Below, in pieces: positions 4,067-12,161 of a stretch of DNA of 32,374 bases. The position numbers and the translations under genes were made by a program. The stretch is taken from positions 1 to 32,374 of IMG/VR virus record IMGVR_UViG_3300027847_001949; one strand, 5' to 3'. A model generated the notes under the pieces. It saw only the letters and a program-made list of their open reading frames with translations. It ran no database searches and was not told where the DNA came from. Origin of the DNA: a virus. The number at the start of each line of letters is the position of its first letter. Positions within the stretch are counted from its first letter, which is position 1.

Positions 4067-4099
4067 TTGGCACGGCGCGTGCTGCCCGTCCCGTGCCAA
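4067..4099. repeat. 33-bp palindromic repeat, copy 3
   Basis: TTGGCACG and CGTGCCAA arms. It is followed by AAAAGTCAAGCGCAAAAAAG, the same right flank as copy 2. Confidence 0.9.
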
Positions 4100-4139
4100 A
4101 AGTCAAGCGCAAAAAAGATTATTTTTCTCAAGAAAAGCC

Positions 4140-4167
4140 TTGACTTTAAACCCCTATAGTCTATTAT
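4140..4167 (+). promoter_or_regulatory. promoter of the structured RNA locus
   Basis: TTGACT (4140-4145), N16, TATTAT (4162-4167). It is the only early-type promoter here that is not followed by a coding sequence; transcription would begin near 4174. Confidence 0.6.
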
Positions 4168-4173
4168 TGGTTA

Positions 4174-4504
4174 TAGTTAATTGAAAGACTTTTATTGTGG
4201 CCCTGTAGTTTATATCAGGTTTAAAACGCTCTCGTCCCGATCCTAGGTAAAAGGGAAGCGGACTGATCATTTGTGAGAGAGAACAGGGGGTTCGAATCCC
4301 CTCAGGGCCTGCTTTTTCTGTAGATCGAAAGATTGAACAACGAGGCGACAGCACGCGCCTACAACCCGAAGGGGAGAGAGAAAAAGGTACAACACACAAT
4401 TTCACTTTGCTAGGTCAGGCGGGAGTATGGAACGTGGGAGGTGCATCTCCCAAGGCGGTTCATGTGTTCGCTGAGTACTCGGAGAACCCTAAGCTGGCCT
4501 AGCA
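4174..4504 (+). ncRNA. structured non-coding RNA locus of unknown family
   Basis: From the promoter at 4140 to the ligase promoter at 4534 there is no credible gene, but there is strong secondary structure. The tRNA-like element is at 4199-4310. Hairpins follow: AGGCG/CGCCT at 4343-4360 and CCC-GAA-GGG at 4365-4373. A ten-pair stem (4409-4418 with 4494-4503, one G-U) then encloses a six-pair hairpin TGGGAG/CTCCCA (4435-4452) and a five-pair stem GGTTC/GAACC (4457-4461 with 4484-4488), making a three-way junction. It does not carry the RNase P, tmRNA or SRP consensus blocks I know. It may be one RNA or two processed ones. Function unknown. Confidence 0.55.
4199..4310 (+). ncRNA. tRNA-like element with a 41-nt anticodon loop
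   Basis: Acceptor arm GGCCCTG (4199-4205) pairs fully with CAGGGCC (4303-4309). The T-arm is GGGGG-TTCGAAT-CCCCT (4286-4302) with a perfect T-loop. A D-like arm GTTT/AAAC with GG in the loop follows position TA. CTCTC (4229-4233) can pair with GAGAG (4275-4279), but the loop is 41 nt instead of 7. No CCA is encoded. It could be a tRNA with a roughly 34-nt insertion, a decayed tRNA, or a tRNA mimic domain of the longer RNA. The insert is far too short for a group I intron. Anticodon cannot be assigned. Confidence 0.5.
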
Positions 4505-6468: not shown

Positions 6469-6501
6469 TTGGCACGGGGCGTGCAGCTGGGCCCGTGCCA
6501 A
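6469..6501. repeat. 33-bp palindromic repeat, copy 5
   Basis: TTGGCACG and CGTGCCAA arms with interior GGGCGTGCAGCTGGGCC, 4 nt after a stop codon. Confidence 0.9.
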
Positions 6502-6540
6502 TCTGGCCTTAAAACTTTTTTTCTTTTTTTGCGATTGGGG

Positions 6541-7049: not shown

Positions 7050-7298
7050 ATGATTAAATTAGAAAAAGCATTAGCAGGTCTTGGACTTAAACAATCCTTT
7101 TTTGATGAACTAAAGGCAGATCTTGAAGCGGAGAGGATTATTACAGAAAATGGCCTACTGCCTATAACCAAAGAAGATGTTAAGGATGAGCTTAAACAAT
7201 TAGATACAGAAGTGGATACTGACCCCATTGACGAAGATGATGAAAATCAAATCGACATGGACGCGATCTCCCCAAGCATGAGAAAGCTGTACGAATGA
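7050..7298 (+). CDS. acidic hypothetical protein, paralogue of 16041-16277
   Basis: 82 residues, very acidic. Its C terminus (TEVDTDPIDEDDENQIDMD then A-I-SPSM) is nearly the same as that of the 78-residue protein at 16041, while the N-terminal halves differ more (both have helical ELKA-type segments). This is a duplicated gene family in the same phage. The acidic tail could mimic DNA or bind a basic partner; this is inference. The leader is AAAACC-ATG. Confidence 0.7.
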   Translation: MIKLEKALAGLGLKQSFFDELKADLEAERIITENGLLPITKEDVKDELKQLDTEVDTDPIDEDDENQIDMDAISPSMRKLYE

Positions 7299-7366
7299 TG
7301 ATTCCAATCGTAGTCCTTGGTCTTCTTCTTATTGTTGTAATTGGAATATTAACTGATACATTATGA
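7295..7366 (+). CDS. 23-residue single-pass membrane peptide
   Basis: MMIPIVVLGLLLIVVIGIL followed by TDTL: nearly all hydrophobic. It overlaps the upstream gene as ATGA and its own stop overlaps the ATG at 7363. One of seven tiny membrane peptides in this region. The tight coupling on both sides supports expression. Confidence 0.6.
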   Translation: MMIPIVVLGLLLIVVIGILTDTL

Positions 7367-8022: not shown

Positions 8023-8065
8023 TTTGTCCACCGCAAAAAAACTTTATTTTTTGTGTAATTGATTC

Positions 8066-8093
8066 TTGACTTTATAGATTTTTCTGTCATACT
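8066..8093 (+). promoter_or_regulatory. early-class promoter
   Basis: TTGACT, N16, CATACT with TGT extension; AAAAAAACTTTATTTTTTG lies upstream as a possible UP element. ATG at 8100, 7 nt downstream. Confidence 0.8.
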
Positions 8094-8099
8094 AGGGTT

Positions 8100-8288
8100 A
8101 TGATTAAAGTAAAAACCACATTAAAAAAGGGCGACATTGTTACCGCCAGTACAGGAGAAATTTACGAGATTGAAGAAATTGTCAATCATCCTAGTTGGGG
8201 CGAAGTTGCAAATTGCCGTTTGTATCAGTCACAAGTCAGGCATGGCATCCGTTGCAAGGGATTAAAAAAGCATCCATTTTTTTCCTAA
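8100..8288 (+). CDS. small hypothetical protein, paralogue of 11988-12161
   Basis: 62 residues: MIKVKTTLKKGDIVTASTGE, a strand-rich small-barrel-like pattern (GDIVT.TGEIYEIEEI), ending in KKHPFFS. The protein at 11988 has the same plan (NDIVTNKTGAVFQVI, ending VKKHPFFS), so the pair arose by duplication. A small beta-barrel of SH3 or KOW type is possible. Probably leaderless. Confidence 0.7.
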   Translation: MIKVKTTLKKGDIVTASTGEIYEIEEIVNHPSWGEVANCRLYQSQVRHGIRCKGLKKHPFFS

Positions 8289-8293
8289 AAGCC

Positions 8294-8321
8294 TTGACTT
8301 CACTAAATTTTCTGTCATACT
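8294..8321 (+). promoter_or_regulatory. early-class promoter
   Basis: TTGACT, N16, CATACT with TGT extension, only 5 nt after the stop at 8288 and with no palindrome between. Leader of about 30 nt ending AAAAACC-ATG. Confidence 0.8.
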
Positions 8322-8358
8322 ATTATTATAATTAAGATTAACCTATAGAATAAAAACC

Positions 8359-11920: not shown

Positions 11921-11953
11921 TTTGTTCACCGCAAAAAAACTTTGACAAAACAC

Positions 11954-11981
11954 TTGACTTTATAAAAAATTCTGTCATACT
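11954..11981 (+). promoter_or_regulatory. early-class promoter
   Basis: TTGACT, N16, CATACT with TGT extension; ATG at 11988 is 7 nt downstream. Confidence 0.8.
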
Positions 11982-11987
11982 AGAGTC

Positions 11988-12161
11988 ATGATTAAATTAA
12001 ATGATATAGTAACAAACAAGACAGGAGCTGTCTTTCAAGTAATTGACCCAAACTACCGCACCGATCGGTTGGGCAACCAAATCCTTTGCCGTAAGTACCG
12101 CAGTCAAAAGCGTGTTGCCTTCATGCCTTGGCAAGTGAAAAAACATCCATTTTTTTCCTAA
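11988..12161 (+). CDS. small hypothetical protein, paralogue of 8100-8288
   Basis: 57 residues: MIKLNDIVTNKTGAVFQVID, then RKYRSQKRVAFMPWQVKKHPFFS. It shares the plan, start MIK and the exact end KKHPFFS with the protein at 8100. Even the following bases (TCCTAAAAGCCTTGAC) are shared, so gene and downstream promoter were duplicated together. Probably leaderless. Confidence 0.7.
   Translation: MIKLNDIVTNKTGAVFQVIDPNYRTDRLGNQILCRKYRSQKRVAFMPWQVKKHPFFS

Follow-up and report, generated by a model that had tools for sequence, protein, structure and literature searches.

A tRNA-like phage RNA with a conserved three-way-junction core and palindromic hairpin loops, a candidate class of self-assembling RNAs

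The packaging RNA (pRNA) of phage phi29 contains a three-way junction, and its subunits pair with one another through their loops. The bacterial Y RNA-like YrlA is a noncoding RNA that carries a tRNA-like module with altered ends. GOLLD and ROOL are ornate RNAs of phages and prophages for which homo-oligomers have been shown (PMC12286853). In the same study, the switching of a loop tetranucleotide among the palindromes GGCC, GAUC and AGCU served as evidence for homomeric kissing loops, an argument that was applied to OLE and GOLLD. Theta ribozymes, which are HDV-like, lie 3' of phage tRNAs (PMC10879173). The element described here (4199-4386 of the window) is one compact RNA in which a tRNA-like domain is followed by a 2-nt linker and a three-way-junction core. 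Sequence comparison shows that it belongs to a real, diverse, widespread and uncatalogued class of phage RNAs with members in unrelated phages. By new we mean absent from Rfam 15 and from the papers searched, few of which were subscription papers; that search turned up theta ribozymes, GOLLD/ROOL and Pas sRNAs, and the present RNA was undescribed in it.

The window is the whole stretch of DNA that was analysed, a 32.4-kb virus record with genes for a T4-type terminase, PhoH and an ATP-dependent DNA ligase. The RNA element is flanked on one side by the ligase gene and on the other by a small ORF that follows a GP88-like gene. The original prediction placed a promoter ahead of a stretch without a credible gene, and a promoter-like site was found there, followed by about 340 nt free of credible genes (Table 1). 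The leader after the promoter-like site is conserved in the same four relatives as the site itself. Other promoter-like repeats of the window (CTTGACTTT...TTCTGTCATACTA), from which this site differs in type, precede many small genes (e.g., 8046-8113, 8274-8341 and 11934-12001), and GC-rich dyads (TTGGCACGG..CCGTGCCAA) stand after small genes (e.g., 2843-2903, 4067-4127 and 6469-6529). The folding energy of the whole 343 nt was ordinary (z = -0.34). Energy alone therefore proves nothing, and the evidence for structure is comparative.

Table 1. Features of the RNA locus in window coordinates.
Feature	Position	Strand	Remarks
Promoter-like site TTGACT-16-TATTAT	4140-4167	+	10/12 matches; similar site before the element in L011, L019, L022 and L028
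Transcribed leader (start site inferred)	4174-4198	+	kept in near relatives
tRNA-like domain	4199-4309	+	acceptor 4199-4205/4303-4309; D-arm 4208-4227; T-arm 4286-4302
Replaced anticodon arm	4229-4279	+	stem P_ext 4229-4233/4275-4279 around hairpins A and B
Hairpin A	4235-4256	+	loop contains CCUAGG; covariation in relatives
Hairpin B	4258-4274	+	loop CUGAUCA; covariation in relatives
Linker UG	4310-4311	+	UG or AG in 28/32 distinct members
Core	4312-4386	+	P1 4312-4319/4379-4386; P2 4343-4360; P3 4365-4374
Optional GATC-GAAA-GATT hairpin in core	4323-4334	+	
Further core segments	AACG 4339-4342; AGAG 4375-4378	+	
Downstream three-way junction	4409-4503	+	optional module; this window, L019 and L022 only

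The Rfam tRNA model, whose gathering score is 29 bits, matched 4199-4310 with 37.7 bits, the anticodon arm containing an insert. ARAGORN did not call the domain. The 7-bp acceptor, D-arm and T-arm agree with the prediction, and no CCA is encoded. Examined as a decoding tRNA, the domain has a 7-bp acceptor, a D-arm and a T-arm but fails on two points. A stem with hairpins stands where an anticodon arm with a 7-nt loop and U33 would be, and no CCA is encoded or can be added after the discriminator in the unprocessed element, because P1 of the core starts two nucleotides after the acceptor. Among 32 members there were 31 distinct acceptor stems, with all seven pairs formed in 28. The T-loop was TTCRA in 29/32 and the D-loop contained GG in 30/32. 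All these figures, and that for the linker in Table 1, lean high, since the domains were chosen by a score rewarding such tRNA features. The domain is 73-223 nt long in typical members, and several kinds of tRNA body were found in front of the core. Some arrangements were more unusual: the core of L095 follows a tmRNA-like tRNA domain; L047 (minus strand, ~3714) has a tandem pair of tRNA-like elements, the second followed by a stretch resembling the 5' end of tmRNA; and in L020, a 138.8-kb phage contig with about 40 tRNA matches, tRNA halves are reversed with the 3' half first (reverse complement, ~2262), possibly representing permuted or broken tRNAs.

What had been described as a 41-nt anticodon loop is not open, as it contains two hairpins enclosed by a stem, P_ext. 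This stem was paired in 11/11 hand-assigned relatives, and four of its five positions showed between two and five types of pair. P_ext, hairpin A and hairpin B all covary across the relatives. The insert ranges from a 7-nt loop in L080 and L081, where U33 is absent, to about 175 nt, and L080, L081 and L144 have a single small hairpin in the replaced arm. The anticodon arm has been replaced and evolves fast while the acceptor, D-arm and T-arm are kept canonical. Judged from these sequences, the domain is tRNA-shaped, its anticodon arm is swapped for a stem that usually carries two hairpins, and it ends exactly 2 nt before the core. A generic tRNA model would likewise match, with an insert in the anticodon arm, a tRNA that had decayed or carried a mini-intron and lay beside unrelated hairpins. 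We consider that explanation scarcely credible, given the compensatory changes in all helices, the lack of CCA, inserts of up to ~175 nt with a plan of their own, and 7-nt-loop members without U33. A decayed tRNA is ruled out, since the acceptor covaries, as do P1 and the stem in place of the anticodon arm. The mini-intron that had been suggested does not fit the 7 to ~175 nt range and two-hairpin plan of the inserts, and group I and other tRNA intron families gave no match over the element in the Rfam search.

Two hairpins had been predicted to follow the tRNA-like element. They are there, but as parts of one junction closed by P1. Its typical order is P1, an optional GUAG-hairpin, AACGA, P2 (GGCG..CGCC), UACAA, P3 (CCC..GGG), AGAG and the second strand of P1, with the sequence signature AACGAGGCG...CGCCUACAACCC...GGGAGAG. 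This core, which lies immediately behind the acceptor, is the best-conserved part of the RNA, and about a dozen of its unpaired bases are conserved. In a 16-row alignment, 98.1% of cells were paired versus 85.4% after shuffling, and there were 46 double-change cells versus 16 in the shuffled alignments (0/500). The signal was lost when the partner was slid by 1-3 columns. Rows marked t in this alignment were edited (loops were trimmed, and P3 hairpins were shortened or swapped for a short form). Two rows lost the outermost C of P1, and row L063t is the L064 sequence. The model built from it, R1, was used for detection only, and no claim on P3 is drawn from the alignment. The apparent invariance of P2 and P3 is partly due to the search patterns, which fixed their letters. 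Native P1 was represented by 32 distinct helices with 28 to 32 standard pairs out of 32 at each of six inner positions, a count biased towards pairing since the helices were located by pairing or set by hand. P1 was misplaced when all members were aligned together, and fewer sequences were therefore used. Strong covariation in relatives, named at the outset as a check on the structure, was found for the acceptor, P_ext, both hairpins and the core. A sub-class with an extended P3 (L148 1201-1270, L149 1201-1290, L150 800-926 and L144 1500-1580) has a common apical motif (ACGNNCGAC...GGUAAUCAG) in Vibrio, Pseudomonas and TPWB-08 phages.

A compact core with such conserved unpaired bases, placed right after the acceptor, could suggest a ribozyme, and theta ribozymes hold the same place behind phage tRNAs (PMC10879173). 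Circular permutations of the core, described below, are also known from other ribozymes. We regard catalysis as improbable, since no Rfam 15 family except tRNA rose above threshold on the window element at an E value of 10, and since a spacing fixed at 2 nt, together with the coaxial layout, points to a core and a tRNA-like domain that remain joined. In one member (L067) the core sits on the anticodon stem, where trimming of a 3' end would make no sense. Membership among HDV-like ribozymes was rejected, as no HDV-family match was obtained at E 10 and the core is a three-way junction.

The second three-way junction, at 4409-4503, folds well as predicted (z = -2.65), but the main role assigned to it did not hold, as it is the least conserved part. 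Conservation is limited to the close relatives L019 and L022, at a mean column identity of 91%, and most relatives lack the junction. Its hairpin loops are palindromic or nearly so, with AUGCAU in L022, GUGCAU in the window and GUAC in all three. This predicted junction is a separate module, either an optional neighbour or a 3' domain. In L044, L048, L051 and L052, the core is also followed directly by a stretch that looks structured and has a long closing stem; its sequence differs from that of 4409-4503.

Relatives were traced by pattern scans with pieces of the leader and the trailer. In five contigs of one related phage, the same leader and 3' trailer flank a different tRNA-like domain. 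The pattern scans yielded about 50 distinct relatives in viral contigs, and the core model found one strong copy per contig in 49/50 viral records of 7.5-533 kb, with weak second matches in three. The element is unannotated in Tetrasphaera phage TJE1, where only the core was found, and stands among tRNA genes in Pseudomonas phages Psa21 and D6 and in phage TPWB-08. Part of it is annotated as tRNA-OTHER in D6, and the proposed class, if borne out, may explain some odd tRNA annotations of this kind in phages. Six loci from a pattern scan of genome contigs were judged to be chance by model scores, and seven pattern matches (L061, L069, L078, L088, L103, L104 and L107) were discarded as coding-like sequence without structure. 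A second leader-like match in L037/L038 had no element after it. BLAST of the window element against phages gave no match, BLAST of the trailer against plasmids gave chance matches only, and clustering of the gene neighbourhoods of members showed no universal partner protein.

The Rfam search proposed with the original prediction returned no known family except generic tRNA, also for 20 members searched at gathering scores. Together with dozens of relatives and covarying helices, this supports the prediction of a new structured RNA or tRNA mimic. The GOLLD and ROOL models did not match the window element or the tested members. The YrlA model matched none of the elements, its weak sub-threshold scores in L150 spanning ordinary tRNA genes, and the tmRNA model gave no match over the element and only weak sub-threshold scores elsewhere in L153.

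Circularly permuted cores, with P1 capped and P3 open, were found in L094, L072, L067, L151 (Acinetobacter phage SR) and L153 (Escherichia phage Jgk1). The domain capping P1 has no TTCRA T-loop in L151 and L153. In L067 (minus strand, ~7149-7300), the tRNA-like domain is itself circularly permuted, its acceptor being capped by a CUUG loop, and it joins P1 of the core through the anticodon stem. E. coli phage CUS-3, which is P22-like, has the core motif with AAAACGAGGCG (the P2 motif preceded by AAAACGA) in a gap of about 600 nt between the antiterminator gene Q and holin S (L147 1217-1812), and on this motif it is probably a further permuted member. The CUS-3 region largely recurs in E. coli genomes, most matches covering the adjacent late region and not the motif. 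E. coli phage HK75 can be aligned to the CUS-3 region but lacks the core; its Q-holin slot (L155 1280-1420) appears to contain a tRNA-like domain whose anticodon arm carries a long insert. The permuted cores fit a function that resides in the fold and not in the strand order.

The first loop of the replaced arm is CCUAGG, UCUAGA or ACUAGU in the window and in near relatives, and the second loop is UGAUCA, UAGCUA or UAAUUA. Further palindromes among the loops are UGCA, CCGG, UUAA, ACGU and GGCC. Loop sequence varies between members, and self-complementarity is kept. With hairpins taken from single-sequence folding or hand assignment, 25/66 loops (38%) from 32 distinct inserts contained a 6-nt palindrome, while refolded dinucleotide shuffles gave 7.7% ± 3.3% with a maximum of 17.3%, so that 0/400 reached the observed value. 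Half of the tetraloops (8/16) were palindromic versus 0.9 expected. A palindromic loop was present in 17 of the 32 members versus 4.6 ± 2.0 expected, a conservative count, because the single-sequence folds of the window and L022, both outside the 17, miss conserved hairpins. Two of the other 15 members, L090 and L102, have two loops complementary to each other over 8 and 6 nt, where 0.04 members were expected. The excess was absent from the P2 and P3 loops of the same RNAs (3/32 and 1/25).

Such palindromes might be selected at the DNA level, as recombination or protein-binding dyads or template-switching hairpins, with the RNA working alone. A palindromic tetraloop is at the same time the centre of a perfect DNA palindrome, which makes such selection conceivable, and several loops of the family are centres of this kind (L073, L077, L087 and L112). 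Many loops, however, are 7 nt long with an off-centre palindrome (CUGAUCA, UUGAUCA and UUAGCUA) and form no perfect DNA dyads, and their enclosing stems covary as RNA helices. We think selection on DNA very unlikely.

Loops that switch sequence and stay palindromic are the signature used for the kissing-loop oligomers of OLE and GOLLD. This pattern leads us to favour, at close to even chances, a phage RNA that self-assembles through kissing loops and acts as a scaffold or compartment in infection. RNase P may trim the 5' end of the tRNA-like fold, and the attached core would replace the CCA, leaving an RNA that is neither charged nor decoding. Copies would then pair through their self-complementary loops or, in some lineages, through two different, mutually matching loops. 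Such pairing could build dimers, rings or closed assemblies such as a cage, their geometry being fixed by the tRNA-like body and the core. The scaffold or compartment role in infected cells is proposed by analogy with GOLLD and ROOL, for which a role of this kind has been put forward. Two observations count against self-assembly: about half of the members have no 6-nt palindromic loop in the predicted fold, and L080, L081 and L144 have just the one small hairpin in the replaced arm.

The main rival is a monomeric tRNA mimic or decoy that occupies a host tRNA-binding factor during infection, the variable anticodon arm reflecting an arms race. The targets considered were an anticodon nuclease, RNase P, EF-Tu, the ribosome and a synthetase. 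Canonical acceptor, D-arm and T-arm next to a fast-evolving replaced anticodon arm would suit a decoy, as would the several kinds of tRNA body before the core and the adjoining tRNA genes in Psa21, D6 and TPWB-08. A decoy leaves unexplained why the loops stay palindromic despite sequence change, why the core is the most conserved part, and why two permuted members (L151 and L153) lack the T-loop motif in the P1-capping domain. We consider it unlikely, though less so than the other alternatives.

Under the self-assembly reading, the candidate class extends over marine phages, jumbo phages and actinophages, with the permuted form in Acinetobacter and E. coli phages. That it is a new class of small self-assembling phage RNAs, with a tRNA scaffold, a permutable core and loops that drift and stay palindromic, is a tentative proposal to which we give slightly less than even weight. 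If true, phage RNAs that self-assemble would be far commoner than the few giant examples suggest, could be much smaller than these, and could be built on the tRNA fold. Why phages keep ornate RNAs beside tRNA genes would then be directly testable, since members occur in the cultivated phages TJE1, Psa21 and D6.

Compared with the known systems, the present RNA shares with YrlA a tRNA-like module and altered ends and differs in domain order. The two-loop scheme of phi29 pRNA has a parallel in L090 and L102, with their pairs of complementary loops. In contrast to pRNA, the element has no Rfam match to that family, its phage in the window has a T4-type terminase, and it is a single-copy element of many unrelated phages. 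Theta ribozymes are likewise conserved structured elements immediately 3' of a tRNA fold in phages, but they fold into the HDV double pseudoknot and possess a catalytic C, whereas the present core is a three-way junction in which no pseudoknot was detected and the tRNA fold is non-decoding. GOLLD and ROOL are three to four times longer, differ in sequence and are not based on a tRNA fold, and their homo-oligomers have been shown, whereas here we infer them. As in the present RNA, one part of these phage RNAs is conserved and another variable, and they often lie close to tRNA genes. They have symmetric kissing loops with switching palindromes, a feature that the present RNA appears to share at the level of sequence.
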